Origin: Desulfobacterales bacterium
GTDB lineage: Bacteria > Desulfobacterota > Desulfobulbia > Desulfobulbales > VMSU01
NCBI GenBank assembly: GCA_011330685.1
Contig: DRPV01000249.1
Coordinates: forward strand, 1 to 52,593
DNA length: 52,593 nucleotides
Direction: 5' to 3'
Shown here: positions 29,275 through 44,076 of the stretch, piece after piece
Layout: each line of letters starts with the position of its first letter
Position numbering within the stretch: the stretch's first letter is position 1
The notes under the pieces: model-generated
Databases searched by the model: none
Told to the model about the DNA's origin: nothing
Seen by the model: only the letters and a program-made list of their open reading frames with translations
Position numbers and translations under genes: made by a program

Positions 29275-29297
29275 TATATTCCCCATAGTTTCTTGTT

Positions 29298-31661
29298 CTA
29301 AAACAAAATCCGTCTTATCTTTAAAAATATTTTTGAATTTGTATCTACCCTTCTGTTTACCTGATCGGTTGCCCCTACCTCTCCGCGTTGATCGTTAATG
29401 GAATAATTCCCGTTAAGGCTGATAGTTGTGGCACCAAATATCCAGTTTCGTTCAGCGTTGAATATATAATAGAGACTTTTGGTATTAATACCATTAGTCA
29501 AATTTTTGCTCAGGATATATCTGCCCTGGACGGAGGCTGTACATTTTATATAGGGAATAACCCCATATAGTTTCAGAGCGTTAGAGTAGGTGTCGGTATC
29601 ATCCTTCTCATAGTCTATATTCTGCCACAGGCCCTTGTCATTAAATTGATACTCGGGAGCATTGCCGCGTCGGCTGACAAGGGAGGTGGTGAGGTTATAA
29701 TGAATACCGGTCAGTGGTACCGGCCCGGAGAAAGAGATGCCGGTATTGAAATGCCATTCAACATCGTGTTTGCTCTCGGCGCTGGCATCTTCGCCGTGGG
29801 TGTCATCCCGCTTGTAGATAATCCACCAGCCGCTGTACAAATAGTTGGTTATTTTACGGCCGTCGTTATATGAGGTTTCTATATGCCACCGTCGGTCGTA
29901 AAAGTTGGTGCCTTCTAACCAGGTATAGGCGTTCTCAATCTTAAAGGGCTTTTCTGTCCATATTAAATTAACATAATCACGAGTAACCTGCGGTTGCAAG
30001 TCTTCAAAGCCTGAATTACCCTTAAGAAATTTTTCTTTGGTCAGAGAATATTCATAGGTAGACGAAAGACGATTGTCGAGCAGGCTTAAATTGACGCTGA
30101 AGCGGGTGGTGTTGGAGGAGATGGTATAATCTTCACCTGCCGGCAGGGAATAGTTTGCCCTGATCTCATAGGGGCCGCCTGTTGCCGGTAAGGCGGTAAT
30201 GTTAATTATTGGAGTATTAGCATTCCAACTCCCCTGGGACAAATTTTGCCATAATGTATTATCAATATCTTTGGTGCAGGAGTTTTGTGCATAGCAGTCG
30301 CAACTATAATGTTTGCCGCCGGTATTTGTATCGCTGTGGTTAATATCACAGACCGCTACGGTAATGGTAGGAGGGTCAGCGTTAGGTTTAATATTAAAAG
30401 TAATGGGAAATGGCCCGGCTGAGGTGAAATTGCCGGGAATTACATCTGTGTAAGATGGTGTTCCCTGTTGCCCGGTAATCAGCAGGTCGTTGGAGGTTCT
30501 GGCTGTCAGATAACCGCCGAAGAGCCGTTTGCGGTAGTCAATGGACAAATTATAATCCTGGGTCTTGGTTCTGTCGCTCTCAGAATTTTTATTTCTCCAA
30601 CCGATTTTAAGCTGGGTAAACAGACTTTCATAAAGGCGGTGATTCAGTTTGGCATTGAGATACTCATTTTCATCATAAGTGGACAGCCAGTCCCTGGTCT
30701 GATCTAGATCACGGTTAGAGTCATCCTGGCGGTCAACGCTCATTTCTATTTTTGAACTCATATTCCAGGGCAGATGAATCTTGATATTCTGGATGAATGA
30801 TTTATGAGCGGAGATATTACTGGGCAACGTCTCACCGCTGACAAGATCATTATCGGTATGAGAGACCGAGTAATTGCCGGAGCTTAAAAAATCAAAATTT
30901 TTATAGGTTAAGGTGCCGGAGAGCCGTAGAAAGTTGTTGGCGCTGGAGTTGTTTCCTGTCAGTGACGACAGCGGTTTCTGGTCGGTTTCATTTTTTTGAA
31001 TTCGATGGGAGGCGGCGCCATTTACCGAATACCCCTTACCCTTGTAGGAGGAGCTTATATTGACGGTATCGTTTGTCGCCCAGCGTTTAGCCGTGCCGCC
31101 GATACCGCTGTTATCTTCTGTGGTAGACTTGTAATGGCTGTAACCAAGACGGGCGGAGAGTGGGGTCAGGCGGTAATTAAGGGCACTGTCTCCCTGGAAG
31201 ATCGTTTCGTGGGTATTACTGTCGCCATAAACTGAAGTAATAAAAGGACGGCTCTCGGAAATATGGAAATCCAGGTTGAGATGTTTTCTTCTCAATACCA
31301 GGCCCGCCAGATCAAAATCAATCCCATCACCTTTATTTACCTGCCAGCCGTCATCCTGTTCATTCGTATGGGTGTTACGATCAGTCTCTCCGGCAAAATC
31401 TAAAGTGAAGATCAGCAGATCAGGATTGTAAATATAGCCCAGGCTGGAAAAATCAAGGGTAGCCCTGACCTCCTTGTTGCGGCTCAGGGTTTCTCTATCC
31501 TGGCTTTTGTCTTTAGAGGTATGGGAGATAAAACGGTAATCATAGCTTAAGCCGCTGGTGGAATACCAGATGGTGGGCACAAATTGCCGCCAGGCGGCAC
31601 GGGCCGTGGCTGCGGGCAGCAGTAATGCCAGAGCCAGATATCTGAGCCGTAAGGGAATCAC
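29298..31661 (-). CDS. Outer-membrane beta-barrel protein, candidate porin of an electron conduit
   Basis: 787 residues. The signal peptide is short (~1-22, cleavage at ARA-A) and the chain ends in Phe (RRILF), typical for BamA-assembled barrels. The body is dominated by alternating polar and aromatic strands with Asp-, Asn- and Ser-rich loops and almost no long hydrophobic helices, as in MtrB/PioB-like porins. One loop region (~438-462) has four Cys (CDINHSD..., SCDCYAQNSC). It lies between the first NHL lipoprotein and the SurA-like chaperone. By analogy with porin-cytochrome systems it would shield a cytochrome crossing the outer membrane. I cannot assign it to MtrB, OmbB or another named family. 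Confidence 0.8.
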   Translation of the reverse strand: MIPLRLRYLALALLLPAATARAAWRQFVPTIWYSTSGLSYDYRFISHTSKDKSQDRETLSRNKEVRATLDFSSLGYIYNPDLLIFTLDFAGETDRNTHTNEQDDGWQVNKGDGIDFDLAGLVLRRKHLNLDFHISESRPFITSVYGDSNTHETIFQGDSALNYRLTPLSARLGYSHYKSTTEDNSGIGGTAKRWATNDTVNISSSYKGKGYSVNGAASHRIQKNETDQKPLSSLTGNNSSANNFLRLSGTLTYKNFDFLSSGNYSVSHTDNDLVSGETLPSNISAHKSFIQNIKIHLPWNMSSKIEMSVDRQDDSNRDLDQTRDWLSTYDENEYLNAKLNHRLYESLFTQLKIGWRNKNSESDRTKTQDYNLSIDYRKRLFGGYLTARTSNDLLITGQQGTPSYTDVIPGNFTSAGPFPITFNIKPNADPPTITVAVCDINHSDTNTGGKHYSCDCYAQNSCTKDIDNTLWQNLSQGSWNANTPIINITALPATGGPYEIRANYSLPAGEDYTISSNTTRFSVNLSLLDNRLSSTYEYSLTKEKFLKGNSGFEDLQPQVTRDYVNLIWTEKPFKIENAYTWLEGTNFYDRRWHIETSYNDGRKITNYLYSGWWIIYKRDDTHGEDASAESKHDVEWHFNTGISFSGPVPLTGIHYNLTTSLVSRRGNAPEYQFNDKGLWQNIDYEKDDTDTYSNALKLYGVIPYIKCTASVQGRYILSKNLTNGINTKSLYYIFNAERNWIFGATTISLNGNYSINDQRGEVGATDQVNRRVDTNSKIFLKIRRILF

Positions 31662-31676: not shown

Positions 31677-32846
31677 TTATTCAGCCGCCCCGTTTTTACG
31701 TCTCAGCTCTCTCATGTATTTATCCAATAATTCCTGATCGGAGGGATAAGTTTTGCCCGTCATTTTGCCAAAGCCATAGACGTTGATAGCGCTGTAGGGA
31801 TGGAACTGATTGGCAACGATAATCAGGTATTGAATTTGAAAGCCGGGGGCGGCATATTGTTTAAAATAATCAACGCTGTCATAGTTAATTGCCACCCCGG
31901 CCGGCAGATTCATAGAGCCTGGTTTGTCCAGTGGCAGATTGCCGAAGGCAGTCAGCACCTGGCCGTTGGCGGCAAAGACCTGGACGTTGTTAAAGGCGGC
32001 GTCGGCCACATATATTCGCCCGTCATGATCAATGGCAATACCCTTGGGGCGGCCGAAGTGGCCAAAGCTGCTGCCGGCGCTGCCAAGATATCCCCGGTAA
32101 TGACCATCACGGTCATATTTGACAACCTGGAAACGTCCCATATCCACGACATACATATAGCCCTCCTGGTCGAAGGCGATATCCACCGGGATACGTAATC
32201 TGGTATTTTCTTCTCCCGAATTGCCGATACTGTCAATTACGTTGCCGCTTTGTATGTCAAAAACCTGTACCCGGCCTTTGTTGTGAGTACCGTCAACCAC
32301 AAACAGGTTACTGCCATATACCGCGACGGCCACCGGCTTCCAGTTATCAGGATTGGAATAGCTTTTGACAAAAAAGTCGTGTTTGTCATATTTAAGAACC
32401 TGCGAACGAGCTGGGTCAACAACATATTTATTTCCCTTTTTATCAAGGGCTATATTCAGGGGCTCCACTAATTTGCCCATACCCTGCGCTCCGCTGAGGG
32501 GGGCAAATATCCGCTTGGCCAGATTAAAGGTGAAGACGGTGTTCATGGAGTCACAGACATAGAGAATATCGTTCTGCATAGCTACTCCATAGGGCTTTTT
32601 GAAGACAAAGCCCTTGCGGCCCCGTACCCCGATAAAGGCGGCCAGACCACTGGCTTTTTTAGCAAAATCAGCCGAGCCGTTAAAGCTGCGGAGAAATTGA
32701 TAACGCGGTAGAGACGGAGCCGGCGGGAAAAAGGTAGGGGGTTGTTTCTTTTGAGGAGCAGTTGAGGGTATGCAGCCGGACAGGGCAAAAAAGCTGAGCA
32801 GAATCCCGGCCAGTATATATATATTACGGGCATCCTTTCTAAGCAT
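31677..32846 (-). CDS. NHL-repeat beta-propeller lipoprotein, first gene of the conduit operon
   Basis: 389 residues. The lipobox is FALSGC with Ile at +2, so outer-membrane sorting is likely. About six NHL blades are visible (e.g. IALDKKGNKYVVD, DIAFDQEGYMYVVD, GIAIDHDGRIYVAD). AAGGAG lies upstream of the ATG, and a sigma-70-like promoter is placed at 32936-32963. The paralogue at 27245 closes the other side of the porin-chaperone pair, so two propellers frame the barrel gene. Confidence 0.88.
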   Translation of the reverse strand: MLRKDARNIYILAGILLSFFALSGCIPSTAPQKKQPPTFFPPAPSLPRYQFLRSFNGSADFAKKASGLAAFIGVRGRKGFVFKKPYGVAMQNDILYVCDSMNTVFTFNLAKRIFAPLSGAQGMGKLVEPLNIALDKKGNKYVVDPARSQVLKYDKHDFFVKSYSNPDNWKPVAVAVYGSNLFVVDGTHNKGRVQVFDIQSGNVIDSIGNSGEENTRLRIPVDIAFDQEGYMYVVDMGRFQVVKYDRDGHYRGYLGSAGSSFGHFGRPKGIAIDHDGRIYVADAAFNNVQVFAANGQVLTAFGNLPLDKPGSMNLPAGVAINYDSVDYFKQYAAPGFQIQYLIIVANQFHPYSAINVYGFGKMTGKTYPSDQELLDKYMRELRRKNGAAE

Positions 32847-32963: not shown

Positions 32964-33004
32964 AGCCGTTTTGTCTGTGGGGATTGCGCCTTAAAAAAAT
33001 AGAA

Positions 33005-34699
33005 ATGAAAAAAAGAAGAAAAACGGTCTCTCTCGCGTCCTCACCACGGGTGTTGACCGCCCAGGCTGAAGGGCACCTCAAGGCTGGTCGTTTGGAACAG
33101 GCGGCCCTGTGCTATGAAAAATTATTACATAAAACCCCAAAAGATTTTATGCTCTGCAATCAACTGGGGATTGTCTATGACGGACTGGGTGAATGGCAGC
33201 GGGCCGCCTTCTGGTATCGGAAAACTGTTGCCTTGCAGCCGGGAATGGCTGAGGCCCATTATAATCTGGCCAATGTTCTGCATCAACAGGGAAAAGACAA
33301 CGAGGCCATAAAGGCTTACCAGCGGACGCTGGCCATAGATAAGCATAATCTGTCGGCCTGGAACAATATGGCCGCCATTCTTTATGATCAGGGGCGTATG
33401 GCCGAGACGCTGTCCTGCTTTAAGGAGGCCATGTTGGTGTTCCCGGATAATCCAGGTCTGCACAGTGCCTGTCTCGCGGCTCTTAATTATATGCCGGGGA
33501 TAAGCCGGGCCGAGGAGGCCCGGGCGGCAAAGGAATGGTGGGTTAGGCATGGCCGTGGGCGGCGCTGCCGGTATATCTTCACAAATTCGTCAGATACTGA
33601 ACGTGTTCTGCGGGTGGGTATAGTGTCCCCCGATCTTCGGGATCATTCGGTAAGCTATTTTCTGCGGCCCTTGCTCCGCGATCATGACTCGCGGCAGATA
33701 AGCATTTTCTGTTACGCCAATGTCAGCCGCCCTGACTCTGTTACGGCCGAGCTTAAGCTATTGAGCCCTTACTGGCGCGATATAAGCACACTTGACACCG
33801 GTCAAGCCGTTCGGGCCATAGTCAATGACCGGATAGATATTCTTGTTGATCTAGCCGGGCATATGACCGGCAGTCGTTTAGATATATTTGCCTGCCAGGC
33901 CGCGCCGCTCCAGATGAGTTGGCTGGGCTATCCCAATACCACCGGTCTGCCCACTATTCATTACCGTCTTACTGATTATGAGGTTGATCCGCCCGCCGAC
34001 AGTGAGCCTTTTTACAGTGAGACCCTGCTCCGTCTCTCCGTCTTTCTTTGCTATGAACCGCCGGATTTAGACATATACCCGGTGGAGCCGCCCTGTCTGC
34101 GGAATAAATATATAACCTTCGGTTCCCTTAACAATCCGGCTAAGATCTCCCCGCCGCTGGTTGAGCTCTGGGCTGCTGTCCTGAAAAAAACTAAAGGTTC
34201 CCGGCTGTTACTGAAGGGAGTAAGTCTTGATCATCACGAGACGAGAGAGCGTATGCGGCGGCTTTTTGCCGTTCATGGTATCGAGGCCGGTCGTCTTGTT
34301 CTCAGGGGTTATACGCCGGGCCGCTTCGAGCATCTCCTTACATATAATGAGGTGGATATCGCCCTGGATACCATTCCATACAACGGCACAACCACAACTT
34401 GTGAGGCCCTGTGGATGGGGGTGCCGGTTATTACCATGCGTGGCGACCGTCATGCCGCCCGAGTGGGGTCAAGTATCATGGGCCGGGTTGCCGGATCGAA
34501 ATTTTGCGCTGTGGATCGTGCGGAATACCTCTCCCTGTCTTTTAATCTGGCCCAAGACAAAAAACGTCTGCAAAGCCTGCGGAAAGAGCTTCGTTCCCAG
34601 CTTTTAAGCTCTGAACTCTGTCGGCGCGCCTCTTTTTGCCGCCGATTCGAGAATATTTGCCGCCGAATCTGGCAGCAATGGTGCGCCGAAACCGCTTAG
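33005..34699 (+). CDS. TPR-containing GT41 (O-GlcNAc transferase-like) glycosyltransferase 1
   Basis: About 564 residues with no signal peptide, so cytoplasmic. Roughly four TPR repeats (~20-150) are followed by a SPINDLY/OGT catalytic region. VGIVSPDLRDHSVSYFL has the His equivalent to the OGT catalytic-base region. DLAGHMTGSR, QMSWLGYPNTTGL, FGSLNNPAKISP (the UDP-binding Lys region) and CEALWMGVPVITMRG follow. GT41 enzymes transfer a sugar to Ser, Thr or Asn of polypeptides. The start is uncertain: ATG at 33005 is used, and TTG at 32984 follows GGGG. The next gene is the OmcE-like tetraheme cytochrome, and a paralogue lies at 38151. Confidence 0.88.
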   Translation: MKKRRKTVSLASSPRVLTAQAEGHLKAGRLEQAALCYEKLLHKTPKDFMLCNQLGIVYDGLGEWQRAAFWYRKTVALQPGMAEAHYNLANVLHQQGKDNEAIKAYQRTLAIDKHNLSAWNNMAAILYDQGRMAETLSCFKEAMLVFPDNPGLHSACLAALNYMPGISRAEEARAAKEWWVRHGRGRRCRYIFTNSSDTERVLRVGIVSPDLRDHSVSYFLRPLLRDHDSRQISIFCYANVSRPDSVTAELKLLSPYWRDISTLDTGQAVRAIVNDRIDILVDLAGHMTGSRLDIFACQAAPLQMSWLGYPNTTGLPTIHYRLTDYEVDPPADSEPFYSETLLRLSVFLCYEPPDLDIYPVEPPCLRNKYITFGSLNNPAKISPPLVELWAAVLKKTKGSRLLLKGVSLDHHETRERMRRLFAVHGIEAGRLVLRGYTPGRFEHLLTYNEVDIALDTIPYNGTTTTCEALWMGVPVITMRGDRHAARVGSSIMGRVAGSKFCAVDRAEYLSLSFNLAQDKKRLQSLRKELRSQLLSSELCRRASFCRRFENICRRIWQQWCAETA

Positions 34700-34725
34700 T
34701 CTGCCTTGATATGAAGATTATGGGG

Positions 34726-34749
34726 ATTTTCGCCCAAGGTGGGGAAAAT
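34726..34749 (+). terminator. Possible weak hairpin after glycosyltransferase 1
   Basis: ATTTTCGCCC and GGGGAAAAT form an 8-9 bp stem with one mismatch around an AAGGT loop, 27 nt after the glycosyltransferase stop. No T-run follows, so it may be an attenuator or an mRNA end stabiliser rather than a true terminator. Confidence 0.3.
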
Positions 34750-34899
34750 AACTCCAGGTAAGAGTGCTTTTGGCCTTATGTGTTGGGAATCCGTATTCTG
34801 GGCTTTAGATAATGGCAGGACTTGTGATACAGCGTAACACATTGTTCTTATGGCGGAAAACTACTTTCTAAGCATTAAAAAATAATAAAAAAGTTTGTT

Positions 34900-34915
34900 T
34901 GGCATGCCTGGTGCA
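34900..34915 (+). promoter_or_regulatory. Sigma-54-type (-24/-12) promoter of the OmcE-like cytochrome
   Basis: TGGCATG-CCTG-GTGCA fits the RpoN consensus TGGCACG-N4-TTGCW, with GG (34901-34902) and GC (34913-34914) exactly 10 nt apart. The preceding 30 nt are AT-rich, as is usual for IHF-assisted promoters. The predicted start is at about 34926, leaving a ~67 nt leader. It is the only good RpoN match I found in the larger intergenic gaps. The rest of 34700-34992 contains only the weak hairpin at 34726. Confidence 0.65.
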
Positions 34916-34992
34916 TTAAAAAAGGTTGCAAGGCGATTAGGTTTGATTTATTTAAACATGATTATCAATCATTTTTACAAGGAGAAACAAAA

Positions 34993-35790
34993 ATGAAAAA
35001 AACATTATTTATCGGACTGGCCCTGGGGATTGGTGTTTTTGCCCTGTCAATGTCGAGCGGTACCGCTATGGCGAATCTTACCGGTGGTGAGGGTATTGTC
35101 GGCTCTTCCCATGATTTAAGTGCCGCAGCATATGGCGATGCTCAGAGCCGGATCTGCGTGTTCTGTCATCATCCTCATAATGCTCATAAGACAGACGCAA
35201 ACCTTACTTACAGCCCGTTGTGGAACCATGATGTAACAACGAATGCCGGCAGCTTCACAACATATAATAACGGTAATGGCCCCACCTCTGGTCGTAATGC
35301 CCTGAATGCTACTATTGGTCAACCTGGTGGTGTTTCTCTGCTTTGCCTGTCTTGTCATGACGGATCTGTGGCCCTGAATGCTTACTCCAATACGCAAGCC
35401 GGCGGTAGTGCACCTGGTGCGGGGGATCAGTTTATTAACAGCGGCTCTTTGCATCCTGGGGATAACGCCTATACCATTGGTAAAGGCGGTGATTTAAGCA
35501 ATCATCATCCCATCGGTTTTAATTATTATGAGGCCATGGATAATGATCCTGAAATCGCCAATGTAACCAAACAGATGACCTCCAGCACCAAGATTAAAGA
35601 CCTGCTTTATGGCGGTACCCAGTTTGAGTGTGTATCCTGCCATGACGTTCATAATACCCAGAATGCCTCTGGAGCTGAGCGTTTTCTGTGGAAGTCTAAC
35701 GACCATTCTAATTTCTGTCTGACTTGTCACGAGAAGGGTTCTACTCACACTAATCCTAACTGGGCTGTAGCTACTGCTACTGCACCGTAA
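34993..35790 (+). CDS. Secreted OmcE-like tetraheme c-type cytochrome, candidate nanowire subunit
   Basis: 265 residues. Signal peptide 1-27 (cleavage at AMA-N). Four hemes sit at CVFCH (55-59), CLSCH (118-122), CVSCH (213-217) and CLTCH (242-246), with many extra His for bis-His ligation (SSHDLS, HHPHNAH, LWNHD, NHHPIGFN). The layout SSHDLS...CVFCHHPHNA...LWNH...QPGGVSLLCLSCHDG fits what I remember of OmcE, the filament-forming tetraheme cytochrome of Geobacter. Linkers are rich in Ser, Thr, Asn and Gly. AAGGAG lies 8 nt before the ATG. A sigma-54-type promoter and a strong terminator bracket it, so it is probably monocistronic and highly expressed. Filament formation is inferred, not shown. 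Confidence 0.85.
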   Translation: MKKTLFIGLALGIGVFALSMSSGTAMANLTGGEGIVGSSHDLSAAAYGDAQSRICVFCHHPHNAHKTDANLTYSPLWNHDVTTNAGSFTTYNNGNGPTSGRNALNATIGQPGGVSLLCLSCHDGSVALNAYSNTQAGGSAPGAGDQFINSGSLHPGDNAYTIGKGGDLSNHHPIGFNYYEAMDNDPEIANVTKQMTSSTKIKDLLYGGTQFECVSCHDVHNTQNASGAERFLWKSNDHSNFCLTCHEKGSTHTNPNWAVATATAP

Positions 35791-35823
35791 TTAAGTTTAA
35801 CTGCAAAACCTGTAGACAATAAA

Positions 35824-35859
35824 GGGGGCAGAACTTAAAAAGAGTTCTGCCCCCTTTTT
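35824..35859 (+). terminator. Strong rho-independent terminator of the tetraheme cytochrome
   Basis: Perfect 12 bp stem GGGGGCAGAACT / AGTTCTGCCCCC with a 7 nt loop and five T residues, 34 nt after the stop codon. Confidence 0.92.
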
Positions 35860-35877
35860 GTGCCGTTTTGTTTTATC

Positions 35878-36045
35878 GTAACTATTCAGCAGGGGCAATC
35901 AATTTCCCTAAACTGGTAGCCGTAACTGTTCAGCAGTGCTCCAGGTTCGGAGTCTACGCTTTCCTGTTCATTTAGGACTTTGAAGCATACTTTCGTATTC
36001 GAAAAGGCCTAAATGGACAAAGATGGGGTGCTGCTGAATTGTTAC
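35878..36045. repeat. Family A palindromic element, copy A3 (diverged)
   Basis: GTAACTATTCAG at 35878, a ~44 nt prefix, GTAACTGTTCAG at 35922 and an end CTGAATTGTTAC at 36045. The inner arm AAAGATGGGGTGC is shared with A1 and A2, but the central arms have changed (TTCATTTAGG / CCTAAATGGAC). It lies between the convergent tetraheme and MORN genes. Confidence 0.7.
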
Positions 36046-36048
36046 CTC

Positions 36049-37035
36049 CTAACGTAATTTCCCATCTTCATATTCAACAAAATGTTCCTGGCCATTGGTA
36101 AAGATATAAACCCCGCGGCCGTCTCTCTTGCCGTTTTTGTAGGTTCCCACATACTTAATACCACTGGGAAATATATATGTTCCTAAGCCATGGCGTTTGC
36201 CGTCCTTATAGCCACCGCTATAGACAGAGCCGTCGGCGGCCGTAAAAATTCCCTGGCCGTCTTTACGGCAATTATGGAAACCGCCATGATAGCGGCCGCC
36301 ATCGGATAAGATTAACGTCCCTACCCCGTTTACACAATTACCACTCAGGCATTTGCCGCGAATACCGTTGGGAAAGGTTAAGACCCCGTTTTTGAGGTAG
36401 ACTCCATCCTTATATATACCGCGAAAGCGGCTGCCAAAGGGGAAAATCGCGATGATTTCACCATTAAAGAGGCCGTTTTTGAAGGTTCCCCGGTAGCTTG
36501 TGCCATCCGCCTGCATAATAGTTCCCCGGCCGGATAACTTGTTGTTGAGAAACATACCGCGTAACTCATCGCCATTGGCTTTTTTTAAGACACCTGAGCC
36601 GTTTAAGCGGCCCCGGCGGAATTTGCCACTCAGCCGGCGGCCGTCGTCCATGGTCAACACCCCTATTCTACCGTCAAGACAATTGGAATTTATTTCACAT
36701 TTACCGCCGCCCTCACCTTTTATCAGTACTCGGCCGCCGCCATTGTAATGATTATCGACAAAAGTTCCCTGAAAACGGCTGCCGTCAGCCAGGGTCAAGA
36801 CCCCCGCGCCATTGAAACGACCGTTAATAAAGGCACCCTTATAACGGCCGCCATTGTTGAGGGCAAATACTCCCTTGCCGTTCTGACAGTCAGCTTTTAT
36901 ACAATGACCGGCCATATTGGTTAAGGGCGGTAGTTCAGGTCTGATTTGCCCACTATGACTGCAGCCATAAAACAGCAGGGGCAGAGCCCAGGTGAATATC
37001 AAGGCTGGTATTTTTAGAGCTTTTGCGGAGAGCAT
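36049..37035 (-). CDS. MORN-repeat lipoprotein
   Basis: 328 residues. The signal peptide ends in the lipobox-like LLFYGC. About twelve MORN repeats follow, with the pattern G-x-x-[YF]-x-G-x-F-x-[ND]-G-x-x-[NDH]-G-x-G. Three short Cys pairs (CIKADC, CEINSNC, CLSGNC) recur between repeats at similar phases, possibly as disulfides. MORN arrays form elongated scaffolds. The function here is unknown. It is flanked by family A elements in opposite orientation (A3 and A4) and interrupts the plus-strand cytochrome series, so it may be a later insertion. Confidence 0.85.
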   Translation of the reverse strand: MLSAKALKIPALIFTWALPLLFYGCSHSGQIRPELPPLTNMAGHCIKADCQNGKGVFALNNGGRYKGAFINGRFNGAGVLTLADGSRFQGTFVDNHYNGGGRVLIKGEGGGKCEINSNCLDGRIGVLTMDDGRRLSGKFRRGRLNGSGVLKKANGDELRGMFLNNKLSGRGTIMQADGTSYRGTFKNGLFNGEIIAIFPFGSRFRGIYKDGVYLKNGVLTFPNGIRGKCLSGNCVNGVGTLILSDGGRYHGGFHNCRKDGQGIFTAADGSVYSGGYKDGKRHGLGTYIFPSGIKYVGTYKNGKRDGRGVYIFTNGQEHFVEYEDGKLR

Positions 37036-37130
37036 GGTTGTTACTAATGATTAATGATTGACAAAAAACAAGCAACGCATAAAATAGAAAAGTTTAAGCC
37101 CCTACCTGAATAGTGAAATAAATAACTTTA

Positions 37131-37283
37131 GTAACCGTTCAGCTGCACTCCATCTTCGTCCGTTTTGCCCTCTTCACGTACAGGGAGTACAGACTCGGAG
37201 GTCAAAACGAACAAACCTGGAGCACATCTAAACGGTTACGGTTCCGAGTTTCGGGTAATTTGTTACCTTTATTGAATAGTTAC
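37131..37283. repeat. Family A palindromic element, copy A4 (inverted)
   Basis: In reverse orientation it reads GTAACTATTCAA, a prefix with AAATTACCCGAAACTCG, GTAACCGTTTAG, a hairpin with TTCGTTTTG and CAAAACGGACGAA arms, and CTGAACGGTTAC. The overall plan is the same as A1. It occupies most of the divergent gap 37036-37300 between the MORN and dodecaheme genes. Confidence 0.75.
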
Positions 37284-37300
37284 TAACTTTAAAACAATTT

Positions 37301-38179
37301 ATGCCTCCTGACAATTTATTATTTAGCCGTAACTCGTGGCGGTTGCTGCTTGGCCTCATATTTATTATTGCCGTCTTTCCCCATTATGCCTGGGGTAGTG
37401 GTAAAATTACCCAGGGCTTAACCCTGGCCGACTGCCCCAAATGCCATGCCGCCATCGTGGCCGCCAATAAACGCGCCGGCCGGGCTCATCTCCATAAAGT
37501 TACCTGTTTGAACTGTCATGTGGGGCATCCGCCGCGTAAGTGGGGGATAATTCCCCATTGCAGCCGTTGTCACAAGAAGGGAACCCAAGAGCATTTTGGC
37601 CTTAAAAATTGCCTGGGCTGCCACACCAATCCCCATACTCCATTGCGGATTACCCTGCCTGAACATGCCACAAAACCTTGCCTTACCTGTCATAAGAAGC
37701 AGATTAAACAGTTGAAAAAATATCCCAGTATGCATTCAACCTTCTACTGTACCTCCTGCCATCCCCGGCACGGGTATAAACCCACCTGCTTTGCCTGTCA
37801 CGCCGGTCATCTGCCCTATATGACCATGACTGACTGTCTTGGCTGCCATAAGGCTCATATGCCGCTGCATGTAACCTATGGCGATAAAGTCCCCTCGGAG
37901 TATTGTGGGGCCTGCCATAAGAAAGAATACCGATTGCTTGCCGCGAGTCATGCCAAGCACCGCCGCCTGGCTTGCGTCAGATGCCACAGCCGGGTGCATA
38001 AGACCATACCGAAATGCTCTAAATGCCATAATCCTCCGCCTCATGATCCGGGGCTTTTGAAGCGCTTTAAGTCCTGTCTTACCTGTCATGTTAACCCTCA
38101 TGATTTGCAGTTGAACCAAATAGATCTTGATATTCAGCGGGAAAAGGCCGATGGCCAAAAAGATAAAACGCGCCCGTAA
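37301..38179 (+). CDS. Compact periplasmic dodecaheme c-type cytochrome
   Basis: 292 residues. Signal peptide ~1-32 (WRLLLGLIFIIAVF, cleavage at AWG-S). Twelve CxxCH sites occur in about 230 residues, all canonical, roughly one heme per 19-20 residues, so the mature protein is mostly heme-packing loops. The C-terminal ~30 residues are charged. I do not recognise a named family; it resembles heme-dense periplasmic shuttles. No clear ribosome site precedes the ATG. Its 3' end overlaps the start of the second TPR glycosyltransferase by 29 nt, so the two are translationally coupled. Confidence 0.88.
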   Translation: MPPDNLLFSRNSWRLLLGLIFIIAVFPHYAWGSGKITQGLTLADCPKCHAAIVAANKRAGRAHLHKVTCLNCHVGHPPRKWGIIPHCSRCHKKGTQEHFGLKNCLGCHTNPHTPLRITLPEHATKPCLTCHKKQIKQLKKYPSMHSTFYCTSCHPRHGYKPTCFACHAGHLPYMTMTDCLGCHKAHMPLHVTYGDKVPSEYCGACHKKEYRLLAASHAKHRRLACVRCHSRVHKTIPKCSKCHNPPPHDPGLLKRFKSCLTCHVNPHDLQLNQIDLDIQREKADGQKDKTRP

Positions 38180-40256
38180 ATCGTTATTTAAACCTCGGCC
38201 GCGCACCCTTGACCTCCTGCCTCAGGCCCTGGCCCTGCACCAGGCTGGAGATTTAAATTCGGCGGCTGATTTTTATAAGCAGGTTTTAAAACAGGAGCCT
38301 GGGAATGGTGATGCCTTAAACCTGGCCGGGGCGTTGGCTCTACAGCAGGGAAATCCGGCTCAGGCCCTGAAATATTTACGGCGGGCGGTAAAATTATACC
38401 CTGAACGTCATGACTATCAAGTCAATATGGCCGCGGCTCTTCGCGACCTGGGGGAATTAGACTCGGCCTCTCTTGTTCTGAAAAAGGTAACGCGTCAGGC
38501 TCCCCAGCATCATGAGGCTCTTCACAACCTGGCGGCCATCTTTGCCGATTTGGGAAATTATCAGCAGTCTGCTGAATATTACCGTCGATTTATTGTCTTG
38601 TGTCCACGAAATTTTGAGGCCTTAAGCGGACTCATAGATGTTTTGCGCCGTGATAATCAATTAGTCGAGGCCCTTGATTTATGTGAGCGGCTGCTTGCGT
38701 TATCCCCATATTCTACCTCGGCTCATGTTCTTAAAGCTGATATTCTTGTCGGCATGGGGCAGCATGAAGAGGCGCTGGCGGTTTTGAAGGAGGCTATTGA
38801 GCAGCAACCTGATGATGGTATTCTGTATAATAATATGGCCAATATTCTGCTCAATACGGGCCGTTTACATGAAGCTTTGGGTCTATATGAACAGGCCGTG
38901 GTTAAGGCACCGGAGATTAACGAAACCTGGGTGAATCTGGCCTGGACATATCGTGAGCATGGCCGACTTTCAGACTCCTGGCGCTGTTTCAAACATTTGC
39001 TGGCTGTCGGGAAATTATCGGCGGCTGATTACAGCGATCTGCTGTTTTCTCTTAATTATGACCCGGATATATCAGCACGTAAAAAATTTGAGCTAGCCCT
39101 GGGCTGGTGGAAGTGCGCTCTGCCGCTGCCGCCCCGGCCTTTGCCGGCCGCCGGCCGCCCTTTGCGTCTTGGTTTTATATCTCCTGATTTTTGCAAACAC
39201 CCGGTGGGTCAGTTTGTCTTGCCCCTCCTGAAAATTCTGGATCCTGATAAAATAGAAACCTTTTGCTATTCCAGTCTCAATAAACCGGCAGATGAACAGA
39301 CTGCAAAGCTGCGTGCAGCGGCCCGGCACTGGCGTGATATTTATGCTATGCCAGACGAGCAGGCCGCCTCCCTTATCCGCCGGGATCACCTCCATCTTCT
39401 CATTGAACTGGCCGGTCATACCAGTGGAAACCGATTGTTGGTTATGACTCGGCGGCCGGCTCCGGTACAGGCTTCATGGTTGGGCTATGTAGCCACCAGC
39501 GGGCTGCCTATGATTGATTACCGCTTGACTGATACTATCTGTGATCCACCGGAGGCGGATAAATTTTACAGTGAATGCCTCTATCGTCTGCCTCATACCT
39601 TCTTTTGTTACAATCCGCCTGTTGAGGCCCCGCCCCTGGCCCCGCCGCCGATTATGAAGAATAAGGGGCCGACCTTTGCCTCCTTTAATAATCTCCCCAA
39701 AATTACCTCGGCCGTGGTGGCTCTCTGGGCTCAAATCCTCAACCGGCTGCCGGAGGCACGTTTACTGATGGTAAGCCGTCAATTTGTGGATTTAACCATT
39801 ATCAAACATTATCAGGAGCTGTTTCTGGCGAATAATGTCACGGATGAACGCCTGATATTTCGGGCCGGACTACCTTTCAGGGAATATCTCGACCTTTTCA
39901 ACCAGGTGGATATCGCCTTGGATCCATTCCCCCACAACGGCCACACCATTACCTGCGATACCTTGTGGATGGGGGTGCCGGTTGTCACTCTAACCGGTGA
40001 GTGCTATGCCGGACGCATGGGATGCAGTATCATGAATCACATTGGTCTAAGTAATATGGTCGCTGCCAGTGAGACTGAATATGTGGAAACAGCAGTCCGG
40101 CTTGGCCGCGATAAAAATGGCCTGGCTGGTTTACGGGCCGGAATGCGCCAACGTTTGCTCTCCTCTCCAATTTGCGATATTGAACAATTCGGGCGTGATT
40201 TTACAAAAGCCGTATATGCGATGGTTCATCAGCATAAGGCTCTACGGGCAAAATAA
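38151..40256 (+). CDS. TPR-containing GT41 (O-GlcNAc transferase-like) glycosyltransferase 2
   Basis: About 701 residues, cytoplasmic, with a basic N-terminus (MAKKIKRARKSLF). Around seven TPR repeats (~25-290) precede the GT41 catalytic region: LGFISPDFCKHPVGQFVLPL, ELAGHTSGNRL, QASWLGYVATSGLPMIDYRL, FASFNNLPKITSAV and CDTLWMGVPVVTLTG. It is clearly paralogous to the enzyme at 33005 with three more TPRs. The ATG at 38151 has GGGAAAAGG just upstream; the TTG at 38127 is an alternative. The coupled start within the dodecaheme gene suggests it acts on, or with, an exported cytochrome. Confidence 0.88.
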   Translation: MAKKIKRARKSLFKPRPRTLDLLPQALALHQAGDLNSAADFYKQVLKQEPGNGDALNLAGALALQQGNPAQALKYLRRAVKLYPERHDYQVNMAAALRDLGELDSASLVLKKVTRQAPQHHEALHNLAAIFADLGNYQQSAEYYRRFIVLCPRNFEALSGLIDVLRRDNQLVEALDLCERLLALSPYSTSAHVLKADILVGMGQHEEALAVLKEAIEQQPDDGILYNNMANILLNTGRLHEALGLYEQAVVKAPEINETWVNLAWTYREHGRLSDSWRCFKHLLAVGKLSAADYSDLLFSLNYDPDISARKKFELALGWWKCALPLPPRPLPAAGRPLRLGFISPDFCKHPVGQFVLPLLKILDPDKIETFCYSSLNKPADEQTAKLRAAARHWRDIYAMPDEQAASLIRRDHLHLLIELAGHTSGNRLLVMTRRPAPVQASWLGYVATSGLPMIDYRLTDTICDPPEADKFYSECLYRLPHTFFCYNPPVEAPPLAPPPIMKNKGPTFASFNNLPKITSAVVALWAQILNRLPEARLLMVSRQFVDLTIIKHYQELFLANNVTDERLIFRAGLPFREYLDLFNQVDIALDPFPHNGHTITCDTLWMGVPVVTLTGECYAGRMGCSIMNHIGLSNMVAASETEYVETAVRLGRDKNGLAGLRAGMRQRLLSSPICDIEQFGRDFTKAVYAMVHQHKALRAK

Positions 40257-40451: not shown

Positions 40452-42365
40452 TTGGATACTGCCCCTTTGAAAATAATTAATCGTTTCATAACCATATTTG
40501 TATTATTTTTCGTGTTACCAGGTCTTATGCCCTGTCGTCAGGCTCGGGCCGGGGAAAAACTGATTTATACCATCCAGGCTGCCTCCTTCAAAGGCCCTAA
40601 AGATGCTACCCGGCTTTATAAATGGCTTAAAGCAAAATTGCCGCCCGCCAATCGTCAGTATCTGCGGCTGGAACAGATTGATGCCTTTTTTACCATCAGG
40701 GCTGGGAAGAGCCGGGATGCCAAATCTCTAAAAACCACCCTGGCCCTGATAAAAAAAATGATTCCGAGCAGCCACATTATGAGGGCTTATTATCGGGAAG
40801 CAAGAATTATAACCGGGGTCAAGACCCAGGATCTGGGGCCTGAGGCCGCCAAAACTCATAAAAATCCACAGATCATACCCACGGCAATTCAGACAGCCAG
40901 AACCCCTCCGTCTCTGCCACCGCCAAATAGCAAGAAATTTATCACTGATATGTTGGCTGAATATCTGCCCTCAACCGAGACAGGCAATGCCATTCTCCGA
41001 CAAGAGGCGAGGAAGCTCAACGCCCGGACGGCACCTTCGCCGGGCTGCCTGGCAGCCAATTGTCATGCCGGGGTAATTAAGGTAAAAAGGCCGCATCTTC
41101 CCGTCCAGGAGGCCAGATGCGCTGCCTGCCATAAGATGAAAAAAAACATCCATCATCCCAGTGGCGGTAAGAATGATTTTATGCCCTTCGGCTCAATTAA
41201 AAAGATGTGCGCCAAATGCCACCCGGATACAAAGACGGGCAAAATAATCCATACCCCCTTTAAGGAGGGGAAATGTTTGATCTGCCACCTGCCGCATGGC
41301 AGCGATAACAAATTTTTACTGCCCACCCCGGACGATGACCAGAAAAAGCTTTGCCTGTCATGTCATAAACAAGACAAAATAACCGGTTTTAAAAATATGC
41401 ACGGCCCTGTTGGCTTGGGGGCCTGTACCTTTTGTCATTCGCCGCACTCCTCCAACCAGCCGAAGCTTTTACGGAGACCGAGTAAAGAACTGTGCCTTGA
41501 CTGCCATCAGAATATTAAAAAAGATCTGGCCGTTATGCCGGACATTCATGCTCCGGTCAAAGAGGGGGATTGTCTGACCTGTCATCTGCCGCACGGTTCA
41601 GCGTCACCCAATTTATTGCATAAAAAGGGTGAGAAGCTCTGTTTTACCTGCCATGAAAATATCCAGGATAAAATGAAACATGCTCATACCAAGCATGGCG
41701 CTTTATATCTGGATAAACAATGCGCTACCTGTCATAATCCGCATTTCTCTAAATTTAAAAATTTATTAATTAAACAGCAAGAGCCACTTTGTCTGAGCTG
41801 CCACAGGCGTGGAGCTGATATCCCAGGGTTTCGGCCCCCGGATATTGCCAGCCAGTTGAAGGGAGAGGCATACCTGCACGGTCCAATCAGAAAAGGCAAA
41901 TGCGCCGGCTGTCATGATCCGCACGGCTCTAATAATAAGAAGCTGCTTGTCGCTCCAATGGTAACCAGCTTCTATGCCCCTTATAACCTCAAAGAATACA
42001 GCCTTTGTTTTAAATGTCATGATAGTAAATTGCTGACGGAGAGGGAGACCACCACTTCCACAAGATTCAGGAATGGTAACCGCAATCTGCACTTCCTTCA
42101 TGTTGCCAAGGAATTTAAGGGTAGAACCTGTAAGACCTGTCACCAGACCCACGCCAGTGATGGGCCCATGCTGATAAGCAGTACAAGAGGCGCCAAATTT
42201 GGCAGCTGGCATATATCAATTGCTTACACCATTACAAAGAATGGTGGTTCATGCACCCCGAGCTGCCACCGTAAAATGACTTATAATCGTGTCAAAGCGC
42301 ATGATAATAGTGCCAAAGCAGTAAAATACGGCAAGTATTATGTTGACTACAAAAGCAACAAATAA
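40452..42365 (+). CDS. SPOR-domain multiheme (15-heme) c-type cytochrome
   Basis: 637 residues. The start is a TTG with GTAAGG upstream; a later ATG would remove the signal peptide (~1-33, FITIFVLFFVLPGL, cleavage at ARA-G). Residues ~37-114 form a SPOR-like domain (LIYTIQAASFKGPKDATRLY and AFFTIRAGKSRDAKSL), which in other proteins binds denuded peptidoglycan. After a Pro-rich linker come 15 candidate hemes: CLAANCH (CX4CH), thirteen CxxCH and CTPSCH (CX3CH). Most lie in doubled-CxxCH repeats with HGPV/HAPV...C..CH.PHGS phrasing. The C-terminal ~150 residues match the nonaheme at 43204. The next gene overlaps by 26 nt. Confidence 0.87.
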   Translation: MDTAPLKIINRFITIFVLFFVLPGLMPCRQARAGEKLIYTIQAASFKGPKDATRLYKWLKAKLPPANRQYLRLEQIDAFFTIRAGKSRDAKSLKTTLALIKKMIPSSHIMRAYYREARIITGVKTQDLGPEAAKTHKNPQIIPTAIQTARTPPSLPPPNSKKFITDMLAEYLPSTETGNAILRQEARKLNARTAPSPGCLAANCHAGVIKVKRPHLPVQEARCAACHKMKKNIHHPSGGKNDFMPFGSIKKMCAKCHPDTKTGKIIHTPFKEGKCLICHLPHGSDNKFLLPTPDDDQKKLCLSCHKQDKITGFKNMHGPVGLGACTFCHSPHSSNQPKLLRRPSKELCLDCHQNIKKDLAVMPDIHAPVKEGDCLTCHLPHGSASPNLLHKKGEKLCFTCHENIQDKMKHAHTKHGALYLDKQCATCHNPHFSKFKNLLIKQQEPLCLSCHRRGADIPGFRPPDIASQLKGEAYLHGPIRKGKCAGCHDPHGSNNKKLLVAPMVTSFYAPYNLKEYSLCFKCHDSKLLTERETTTSTRFRNGNRNLHFLHVAKEFKGRTCKTCHQTHASDGPMLISSTRGAKFGSWHISIAYTITKNGGSCTPSCHRKMTYNRVKAHDNSAKAVKYGKYYVDYKSNK

Positions 42366-43032
42366 AAACGGCGCAAAGCCCGCCGACTTAATTGCGGCTG
42401 GGACGGGTTGGTTCCACTGCCGGTGGATCTTAGGCCGGCTGGGATTCTTATTGACCGGCCTCTTTTGCCTGGTCACCCTGAGTGGCTGTTTTCATTTTGA
42501 CCCCCTCGTTAAGCACAAGATATTGACCACTGTCTTTGACGGGGTACCGGATCTGCCGAGTCTTGACGAGTTGTGCCGGGATAATCTGGATAGTTTATTC
42601 AATAAATATTATGAGCAGAAGATAGCGGAAGCCGCTGCCGGTAACTGGGAAGATAAAAAGATTAAAACGAAGAACACCCGCTCCACCCACCGGCCCTGGA
42701 GGGAAAAAAATTGCCTGGCCTGTCATGATTTTAATGCGGATAACAAGCTGCGTCTGCCCAAAAACAAAATCTGCTATCTCTGCCATAAAAATTTTATTCA
42801 GGGTAAATATGTCCATGGCCCAGTGGCGGCGGGGGCCTGTCTGGCCTGCCACAATCCGCATTCAACCGGTCACCTGTTTCTCTTGCGTCGAAGCCTGAAG
42901 ACTATCTGTTATAAATGTCATGTGGAGAGGAGGCAGGCCTTTCAGATGCATAAAAAAGTAATCAGCCGGGGCATGTATTGTGTGGACTGCCATGATCCCC
43001 ACAGCGGCAAGAGGCATTATTTCTTAAAATAG
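42340..43032 (+). CDS. Pentaheme c-type cytochrome lipoprotein
   Basis: 230 residues. After a long n-region the hydrophobic LGFLLTGLFCLVTL ends in the lipobox LSGC (Cys50), followed by Phe, so outer-membrane sorting is likely. A conserved-looking DGVPDLPSLDELC stretch precedes five CxxCH sites (CLACH, CYLCH, CLACH, CYKCH, CVDCH) in doubled-CxxCH repeats (YVHGPVAAGACLACHNPH). The first codons overlap the 15-heme gene by 26 nt, so they are coupled. The true start might be a little downstream. It could be the membrane-attached partner of the SPOR cytochrome. Confidence 0.85.
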   Translation: MLTTKATNKNGAKPADLIAAGTGWFHCRWILGRLGFLLTGLFCLVTLSGCFHFDPLVKHKILTTVFDGVPDLPSLDELCRDNLDSLFNKYYEQKIAEAAAGNWEDKKIKTKNTRSTHRPWREKNCLACHDFNADNKLRLPKNKICYLCHKNFIQGKYVHGPVAAGACLACHNPHSTGHLFLLRRSLKTICYKCHVERRQAFQMHKKVISRGMYCVDCHDPHSGKRHYFLK

Positions 43033-43203: not shown

Positions 43204-44076
43204 ATGAACAGTGAACATCCCGCCGCCCGGAGACAGAGCAATGTTTTAATTCTGAGCTTGTTTATTCTCTTATGTGTAATTCCCGCGGTCTCAGCTAAGC
43301 CGTTATTCCCGCATCCAGCCGCCACGGCAGTGAACTGCCGGACCGCTAAGTGTCATGTGGGGCTGACCACCCATCCTTCGGCCTTTAAATGCCAGGCCTG
43401 TCATACCTTAAAAGCCGCCGGTCATCCGGGTAAAAAACAAAAAATTACCCTTAAGTCGTTTAATTGTCTTAAATGCCATGAAACAACTGTTGATTATAAC
43501 TATCTGCATGCCCCGGTTGCCGCTGGAGACTGCCTGACCTGCCATAATCCCCACGCCTCCAAAGACAGCATGTATATCGATAGACGGGGGGCTAAGATTA
43601 TCTGTTATAAATGTCATTCTTCGGTAGTTCGGAAGACTGATACCGTGCTTCATGGTCCGGTAAAGGATGACAAATGCCAATTATGCCATACTCCGCATGG
43701 TTCCTATTTCCCCAATCTTCTAAAGGATAAATATTCCACCAAATATTTTAATGATTATACCCCGGATACCTATAAATTTTGTTTTCGCTGCCACAAAATA
43801 GACTTGCTTCTTTATCCCACTACTTCATATAATACTAACTTCAGGGATGGTAAAAAAAATCTTCATTATCTGCACACTCATCGGCCTAAAGGTATTGCCT
43901 GTAAATTATGTCACCGGGTTCATGCCAGTCGTCGGCCTGAATTAATGGCTGATAAGGTTAAATTCGGGGATTGGCAAATGCCCATTAATTTTACCATTAC
44001 CAAGAATGGTGGCCGCTGTCTGCCCGGATGTCACGCGGCCAGGAGCTATAATAGGACTATAAAATATAAGCGATAG
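43204..44076 (+). CDS. Secreted nonaheme c-type cytochrome
   Basis: 290 residues with a signal peptide (~14-31, VLILSLFILLCVIPAV, cleavage at VSA-K). Nine candidate hemes: CRTAKCH (CX4CH) first, seven CxxCH, and CLPGCH (CX3CH) last. The same unusual order, CX4CH first and CX3CH last, occurs in the 15-heme protein, and the C-terminal ~150 residues align with it (CFRCHK, NFRDGKKNLHYLH, FTITKNGGRC). It looks like a shorter paralogue without the SPOR domain. AGGA lies 9 nt before the ATG. The first PilZ gene follows 11 nt downstream. Confidence 0.87.
   Translation: MNSEHPAARRQSNVLILSLFILLCVIPAVSAKPLFPHPAATAVNCRTAKCHVGLTTHPSAFKCQACHTLKAAGHPGKKQKITLKSFNCLKCHETTVDYNYLHAPVAAGDCLTCHNPHASKDSMYIDRRGAKIICYKCHSSVVRKTDTVLHGPVKDDKCQLCHTPHGSYFPNLLKDKYSTKYFNDYTPDTYKFCFRCHKIDLLLYPTTSYNTNFRDGKKNLHYLHTHRPKGIACKLCHRVHASRRPELMADKVKFGDWQMPINFTITKNGGRCLPGCHAARSYNRTIKYKR

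Follow-up and report, generated by a model that had tools for sequence, protein, structure and literature searches.

Predicted TPR-GT41 protein glycosyltransferases paired with multiheme cytochrome genes in a lineage of Desulfobulbales

Described systems and the setting of the locus

OmcE and OmcS filaments have been reported to be glycosylated and OmcZ filaments not to be, and the surface glycans were proposed to insulate the wire (PMC9473688). A search of the literature returned no enzyme named for the glycosylation of OmcE or OmcS filaments. In Haemophilus influenzae, the GT41 enzyme HMW1C glycosylates the adhesin encoded by the neighboring gene in the cytoplasm, before Sec export (PMC3983070), which provides a published precedent for the action before export that a preliminary description of the present DNA had claimed for bacterial GT41 enzymes. 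The locus analyzed here resembles that system in that a GT41-family gene lies beside the gene of an exported protein. However, HMW1C has an AAD fold and transfers N-linked hexoses, whereas the enzymes here are of the TPR-containing SPINDLY/OGT type and are encoded beside multiheme cytochromes. Because nanowires carry sugars and the responsible enzymes were not found in the literature, these GT41 proteins are concrete candidates.

The window is an entire contig of 52,593 bp from a Desulfobacterales genome. As shown in Table 1, the gene coordinates match the five-gene order given in the preliminary description, GT41-1 (GT1), tetraheme cytochrome, MORN lipoprotein, dodecaheme cytochrome and GT41-2 (GT2), and GT2 starts exactly 29 nt into the dodecaheme gene as claimed, with its ATG at 38151. 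The MORN gene lies on the strand opposite to the GT41 and cytochrome genes; therefore, the five genes do not form a single operon. A scan for promoters and terminators gave nothing above shuffled sequences. GT1 and GT2, both intact, are the sole GT41 genes of the 2.9-Mb genome, and both pairings also recur in other genera; on these two counts, the arrangement goes beyond chance. The host is a sulfur-cycle bacterium.

The five genes form the center of a multiheme cluster at 25.4–47.7 kb. The cluster resembles, by component types, the ANME-partner operon (PMC5539420) and the OetABI-type conduits (PMC10553843) as excerpted, with a beta-propeller, a PPIase, a large barrel and several multiheme cytochromes that accompany a cytochrome of the filament type; the excerpts mention no glycosyltransferase, and the heme counts differ. 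In a Foldseek search, the model of the barrel matched outer-membrane barrels, MtrB (6r2q_B) among them. The type of NHL lipoprotein that is divergent from GT1 adjoins OmcE-like genes in many relatives, the MORN gene adjoins the dodecaheme gene in most relatives of family f1, and the 13-heme gene keeps its place downstream of GT2 in five relatives (G002, G003, G005, G006 and G009).

Table 1. Features of the cytochrome cluster, with positions in the window.
Feature	Position	Strand	Evidence
10-heme cytochrome, OmcE-like N-terminal region	25442..27229	-	10 CXXCH; against tetraheme 5.6e-21; MtrC/MtrF-like domain 1.2e-12
Second NHL / 6-bladed beta-propeller lipoprotein	27245..28264	-	Pfam DUF5128 2.4e-30, NHL 1.1e-23
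SurA-like PPIC-type peptidyl-prolyl isomerase	28261..29286	-	Pfam SurA_N_3 1e-10, Rotamase_2 1.5e-9
Large outer-membrane beta-barrel, possible conduit porin	29298..31661	-	Model with ~30 strands, pLDDT 63
NHL beta-propeller lipoprotein, divergent from GT1	31677..32846	-	Pfam NHL 1.8e-12
GT1 (GT41-1): basic N-terminus, TPRs, SPINDLY-like GT-B catalytic domain	33005..34699	+	Pfam PF13844 4.3e-46
Putative filament subunit, an OmcE-like tetraheme cytochrome that has a signal peptide	34993..35790	+	phmmer to PDB OmcE 7tfs 2.1e-15
17-residue Thr/Ala/Pro C-terminal tail of tetraheme, GSTHTNPNWAVATATAP	35737..35787	+	Candidate acceptor segment
MORN-repeat lipoprotein, lipobox LLFYGC	36049..37035	-	Pfam MORN 2.5e-31
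12-heme c-type cytochrome, N-terminal signal sequence	37301..38179	+	12 CXXCH; Cytochrome_C7 / Cytochrom_c3_2
Overlap of dodecaheme stop region and GT2 start, 29 nt	38151..38179	+	Sequence
GT2 (GT41-2)	38151..40256	+	Pfam PF13844 6.8e-59; overlaps dodecaheme gene by 29 nt
13-heme cytochrome downstream of GT2	40452..42365	+	13 CXXCH, Paired_CXXCH_1 1.8e-73
5-heme cytochrome	42340..43032	+	
7-heme cytochrome	43204..44076	+	

The GT41 enzymes and the neighboring cytochromes

The assignment of both enzymes to TPR-GT41 in the preliminary description is borne out by the Pfam family Glyco_transf_41 (158 bits for GT1 and 200 bits for GT2, against a cut-off of 25), by N-terminal TPRs matched in both, and by retained catalytic residues. 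For GT1, an alternative TTG start exists at 32984. The best solved relative of both is SPINDLY (3.4e-113 for GT1 and 9.6e-97 for GT2 against PDB), which in Arabidopsis is a protein O-fucosyltransferase (PMC9715652) and shares the combination of TPRs and a GT-B fold. In the alignment, GT1 keeps the equivalents of SPY H495, K665 and Y744 (SPDLRDHSVS, NNPAK and DTIPYNGTTTT), and the motifs equivalent to H495 and K665 are also present in GT2 when aligned with SPINDLY/OGT (SPDFCKH...NNLPK). Unlike SPINDLY, GT1 and GT2 are bacterial, have a shorter TPR array and are linked to exported cytochromes. From these sequence features, the two are predicted to be Ser/Thr protein glycosyltransferases of the OGT/SPINDLY type. 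An identity as HMW1C-like N-glucosyltransferases was rejected, as TPRs are present and the NCBIfam NGTferase model scored GT2 at 45 bits, far below its cut-off of 1000.

The donor-selecting position differs between the enzymes, with Tyr in GT1 and, in the signature FPHNGHT, His in GT2 at the position of SPY Y744. FPHNGHT is common to the f1 orthologues of GT2 among those listed and is not found in the f10 orthologue. Tyr at this position is held to exclude GlcNAc (PMC9715652); for this reason, the +203 Da modification anticipated in the preliminary description is not the best expectation for GT1, and the qualification applies to GT1, GT2 having His there. The genome encodes a GDP-mannose dehydratase (610 bits).

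The tetraheme cytochrome is the only free-standing OmcE-like protein of the genome and also matches 9yuq_N (phmmer against PDB, 3.9e-18). It carries the OmcE-type sequence features, namely four CXXCH motifs, four further conserved His, an N-terminal HD motif and a C-terminal CHxK; the His residues H40, H59, H62, H122, H172, H217, H220 and H246 are invariant in 45 aligned sequences. The same eight His and the CHxK are found in Geobacter OmcE (7tfs; sequence E-value 2e-15), which was also the sole Foldseek match of the structural model (E-value 8e-4, TM 0.35–0.44), a low-confidence model with a mean pLDDT of 55. The protein is thus classified from its sequence as OmcE-like and as a putative filament-forming subunit.

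It differs from Geobacter OmcE in its GT41 neighbor and in an extra Thr-rich C-terminal tail. In the family, 78 of 86 OmcE-like proteins stop two residues past the last CXXCH; the tail is absent from almost all of them, occurs in the genus of the window only, and is kept in G002 and G003. This tail is a new observation and is perhaps a sugar acceptor. The preliminary description had regarded the tetraheme protein as rich in Ser, Thr and Asn. Its Ser/Thr content of 18.1% is in fact below the median of 19.7% for 92 OmcE-like proteins, and this argument for glycosylation was dropped. The dodecaheme protein, which had no match in PDB, is poor in Ser/Thr (10%).

Pairings in related genomes and the possible acceptors

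The pairing of each GT41 gene with its own cytochrome gene is conserved and lineage-specific. Every member of the GT1 clade (window, G002, G003 and G009; support 99/98) adjoins an OmcE-like gene. The GT2 clade comprises nine genomes in two families (support 88/83; 95/84 for the eight f1 rows), and all its members adjoin a 12-heme gene or lie within 1.5 kb of one; in G006, G007, G008 and G009, GT2 begins 10–39 nt 3' of the dodecaheme gene. A distinct GT41 clade of family f3 also adjoins 12-heme genes (L155 and L156), and the linkage therefore arose more than once. A GT41 gene lies within 300 bp of an OmcE-like gene in at least three genera against 0.03 expected; this is a Poisson estimate from copy numbers tallied by hand among the matches listed, and related genomes are not fully independent. 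In G006, G007, G008 and G018, an OmcE-like gene is present and GT1 is absent.

One alternative is that the enzymes serve general surface glycosylation of flagellin, pilin or an adhesin, and that their genes are in the cluster by chance or co-regulation. Flagellin is encoded in all ten relatives tested, and across the rest of the order many GT41 genes lack a neighboring cytochrome gene. However, G001, which belongs to the same genus and is 93% complete, keeps flagellin and lacks GT41, as well as an orthologous tetraheme and a close dodecaheme protein. The adjacency to OmcE-like genes above chance, the location of the flagellin genes on other contigs and the lack of further GT41 genes in the genome also argue against this alternative, which we consider improbable.

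In G009, the cluster is spread over three contigs, and both the GT1/OmcE-like and the GT2/dodecaheme pairs are kept. This arrangement bears on two further alternatives. The acceptors could be other proteins encoded in the cluster, for example the barrel, the MORN or beta-propeller lipoproteins, or the cytochromes with 10 and 13 hemes; the link to extracellular electron transfer would then be real, with neither the tetraheme nor the dodecaheme protein as acceptor. GT2 and the dodecaheme gene do move as a block with the MORN, 13-, 5- and 7-heme genes, and the barrel has the highest Ser/Thr content measured among the cluster proteins (18.8%). However, GT1 of G009 stays with the OmcE-like gene while the barrel and propellers are on a different contig, and the nearest constant neighbor of GT2 is the dodecaheme gene; this alternative is fairly unlikely. 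The targets could also be intracellular regulators, for example the NtrC-type (sigma-54) regulator and the PilZ or HAMP proteins encoded nearby, through which cytochrome expression would be tuned in the manner of OGT and SPINDLY, the closest solved relatives, which act on nucleocytoplasmic proteins. We regard this as quite improbable, as the PilZ/HAMP genes accompany GT2 and not GT1, the regulator keeps neither pairing in G009, the GT41 genes directly adjoin genes of exported cytochromes, and OmcE-like loci of f3 and Geobacteraceae have other modification or lipid-linked glycosylation genes in place of GT41.

The explanation we propose, with roughly even confidence, is that GT1 and GT2 are dedicated cytoplasmic protein glycosyltransferases of the surrounding cytochrome cluster. 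In this scheme, Ser/Thr residues of the OmcE-like apoprotein would receive a sugar from GT1, with the Thr-rich tail as a possible site, and GT2 would act on the apoprotein of the dodecaheme cytochrome or on a further protein encoded in the same unit. By the parallel with HMW1C and its adhesin, modification in the cytoplasm before export is held most likely; it would precede Sec export and heme attachment, and the extracellular filament and its partners would be produced as glycoproteins. The chance that at least one of the two enzymes modifies a cytochrome of the cluster is about even, modification of the tetraheme protein by GT1 falls slightly short of even, and modification of the dodecaheme protein by GT2 is a possibility we rate as rather unlikely. 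The activities, substrates, sugars and timing relative to export are all inferred, and the interpretation in the preliminary description is, as a whole, partly supported.

Extent of the linkage and exchange with sulfotransferases

The preliminary description had proposed conservation of the neighborhood in related genomes as a test. Since the pairings are conserved in relatives, this test is passed within the Desulfobulbales lineage. A general OmcE partnership was rejected. A GT41 gene is found within 10 kb at 2 of 80 OmcE-like loci across phyla, both in Desulfobulbales, and OmcE-type filaments therefore do not need GT41. The Geobacteraceae OmcE-like loci inspected contained no GT41. Of the 70 GT41 loci in the order, 19 lie within 3 kb of a multiheme gene, compared with 14% in the sampled background; the excess is confined mainly to f1 and f3, and GT41 was also rejected as a general multiheme neighbor. 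True OmcS orthologues, too, have a GT41 gene nearby in two additional families (L168 and L206). Among 16 genomes with OmcS-like genes, GT41 is near in G116 and G217 and about 17 kb away in G024; the remaining OmcS neighborhoods inspected had none, and a general OmcS partnership was likewise rejected.

In other relatives, a TPR-sulfotransferase takes the place of GT41 beside OmcE-like genes, with L166 and L048 among the loci that pair one with a tetraheme gene; these sulfotransferases are candidates for protein modification as well. A broader reading, put forward tentatively and at less than even probability, is that adjoining, exchangeable TPR-fused transferases modify filament multiheme cytochromes in the cytoplasm before heme attachment, by GT41 here, by TPR-sulfotransferase in relatives and perhaps by lipid-linked glycosylation in Desulfuromonadia, as a dedicated surface-coat pathway that would yield an insulating or adhesive layer of sugar or sulfate.

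The locus offers two candidate enzymes for nanowire glycosylation, whose donor pockets are predicted to differ, together with a candidate acceptor tail and a pattern of exchange between GT41 and sulfotransferase. If the proposal is true, the surface chemistry of a nanowire is encoded beside the wire gene and could be altered by the swap of one gene, which would bear on conductivity measurements, cell–mineral contact and engineered nanowires. The tetraheme proteins with sulfotransferase neighbors contain 8–10 Tyr, where the family median is 4, and the GT41-linked tetraheme proteins of the genus of the window likewise contain 8 Tyr.

Gene order and conservation of the GT41/cytochrome pairs

The source genome (2.9 Mb, 95.5% complete) was placed in the order Desulfobulbales, its nearest public relative being the MAG Dive96_bin4.200 (locus L075 = genome G002), and the window is an entire contig of 52,593 bp. 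A cluster of the extracellular-electron-transfer type spans 25.4–47.7 kb, where a 10-heme cytochrome, two NHL propeller lipoproteins, a SurA-like PPIase and a large outer-membrane barrel are followed by GT41-1, the OmcE-like tetraheme, a MORN lipoprotein on the strand opposite to its neighbours, the 12-heme cytochrome and GT41-2, and then by 13-, 5- and 7-heme cytochromes with PilZ and HAMP genes. The interleaving noted in the preliminary description, its coordinates, and the 29-nt overlap of GT41-2 (ATG at 38151) with the 12-heme gene were confirmed in the sequence.

When the neighbourhood was checked in relatives, both pairs held within Desulfobulbales. GT41-1 adjoins an OmcE-like gene in the window and in genomes G002, G003 and G009, forming one clade (support 99/98), and GT41-2 adjoins a 12-heme gene in all eight genomes of family f1 that carry it and lies within 1.5 kb of one in G018 (family f10). 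G009 has the propeller/barrel block, the OmcE-like/GT41-1 pair and the 12-heme/GT41-2 block on three contigs, both pairs being intact. In G024, from another family, the OmcE-like gene is adjoined by a GT41 of unresolved tree placement. A third GT41 clade adjoins 12-heme genes at two loci of family f3 (L155, L156), which indicates that the GT41/12-heme adjacency arose more than once. As a rough estimate, with one genome per genus and copy numbers tallied by hand, three genera have a GT41 no more than 300 bp from an OmcE-like gene, against 0.03 expected.

Across phyla, a GT41 occurs within 10 kb at only 2 of 80 OmcE-like loci, both in Desulfobulbales. A multiheme gene lies within 3 kb at 19 of the order's 70 GT41 loci, compared with 14% in sampled control regions, and most of the excess falls in f1 (9/12) and f3 (5/10). 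GT41 genes are found near OmcS orthologues in two further families (L168, L206); most OmcS-like loci have none nearby. Family f12 (L178-L183, L190, L192, L195-L197) carries very large ORFs of ~1,700–3,900 aa with several tandem GT41 domains, none of them near cytochromes.

Predicted donors and acceptors

GT41-1 and GT41-2, the only GT41 genes of the source genome, both exceed the Pfam GT41 cut-off and carry TPRs; the best solved relative of each is SPINDLY (SPY), whose H495 and K665 have equivalents in both. The position of SPY Y744 / OGT C917, held responsible for donor choice (PMC9715652), is Tyr in GT41-1 (IPYNG) and His in GT41-2 (FPHNGHT), the His being kept in the f1 orthologues printed and not in the divergent f10 orthologue. 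The two donors probably differ, and GlcNAc (+203) would be the least likely for GT41-1 with its Tyr. A GDP-mannose dehydratase is also encoded. The GT41-2 gene of G002 is interrupted by an in-frame TAA within the catalytic domain, which is either a sequencing error in this MAG or a broken gene.

Among solved structures, the tetraheme has sequence matches to the OmcE filament subunit of Geobacter (2e-15) and to another multiheme cytochrome (4e-18), and its eight heme-ligand His are invariant across 45 relatives. Its predicted model is weak, with OmcE as the sole structural match; the protein is assigned to the OmcE-like family on sequence features. Whereas 78 of 86 OmcE-like proteins end exactly two residues past the last CXXCH, the window-genus tetraheme has 17 extra C-terminal residues, GSTHTNPNWAVATATAP, conserved in three species, which are a plausible candidate acceptor. 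Since G009 has GT41-1 and a tetraheme without this tail, the tail cannot be the sole acceptor. The window 10-heme cytochrome has an OmcE-like region at its start (38% identity). Proteins of this kind, with 10 or 11 hemes, are found at most OmcE-like loci and might serve as a base for filament docking.

Published work describes the filaments of OmcE and OmcS as glycosylated, extensively so for OmcE, and those of OmcZ as not (PMC9473688); in the set of papers searched, to which the original reports on OmcE and on archaeal nanowires did not belong, no glycosyltransferase was found named for the OmcE/OmcS filaments. HMW1C is a GT41 whose gene lies next to that of an exported protein, which it can glycosylate in the cytoplasm (PMC3983070). 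A GT41 with a linked exported substrate is already known; here the linked exported proteins are cytochromes. The favoured reading, given about an even chance, is that both enzymes would glycosylate apocytochromes in the cytoplasm ahead of export; the preliminary proposal to this effect is supported in part. The GT41 and OmcE-like assignments hold on sequence features, and substrate and sugar remain putative. Modification of other proteins of the cluster is unlikely, and that of intracellular regulators is the most doubtful of the alternatives. Flagellin or general surface proteins are improbable acceptors: G001, of the same genus as the window, keeps flagellin but has neither GT41 nor the orthologous tetraheme nor the close dodecaheme, which in this one genome favours the cytochrome link and counts against flagellin.

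Other modifying candidates at filament-cytochrome loci

The gene neighbourhoods share a recurring theme, in which a filament-type cytochrome has a candidate protein-modifying enzyme encoded next to it. In this order, a TPR-sulfotransferase often adjoins the OmcE-like gene where GT41 does not (G011, G240, G244 = L077, G249 = L079, G118), and in G024 one lies beside the GT41; sulfation of nanowire subunits is possible. In other Desulfobulbales, TPR-fused Sulfotransfer_3 genes occupy the position held by GT41-1 in the window.

Positions of the features discussed
Feature	Locus	Positions
GT41-1 (+)	window	33005..34699
OmcE-like tetraheme (+)	window	34993..35790
12-heme cytochrome (+)	window	37301..38179
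GT41-2 (+)	window	38151..40256
10-heme cytochrome	window	25442-27229
Lys/Arg-rich N-termini	window	33005-33050; 38151-38190
GT41-2 with in-frame TAA (G002)	L054	7409-9556
TPR-fused Sulfotransfer_3 adjoining OmcE-like gene	L046	12882-14954
Same	L048	10349-12070
Same	L159	10792-12909
Same	L165	5196-6665
Same	L166	3159-4922
Same	L170	10406-12019
TPR-B12-binding/radical SAM and TPR-PrmA-like fusions, collectively	L168	5742-8549; 10761-12479
Same	L065	11696-13411
Same	L156	3-1265
TPR protein, C-terminal domain without assigned family	L049	12878-14434
Multi-spanning TPR protein with family-2 glycosyltransferase near OmcE-like gene	L107	13768-16199
Same	L124	16202-18981
Same	L170	12081-19244

The TPR-B12-binding/radical SAM and TPR-PrmA-like methyltransferase fusions adjoin GT41 genes in cytochrome clusters and are taken as part of a family of TPR-fused modifying enzymes; the L049 protein adjoins an OmcE-like gene. 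L107 and L124, from two Desulfuromonadia genomes, encode a multi-spanning TPR protein together with a family-2 glycosyltransferase 3–8 kb from the OmcE-like gene, and the corresponding L170 region has a weak PMT_2 match; these modules are only suggestive of a lipid-linked glycosylation route. A short Lys/Arg-rich N-terminus (e.g. MKKRRK, MAKKIKRARKS, MSLRKLKRSK) is a repeated feature of TPR-GT41 and TPR-sulfotransferase proteins; both window enzymes have it, as do the products of most GT41 or TPR-transferase genes at the loci compared.
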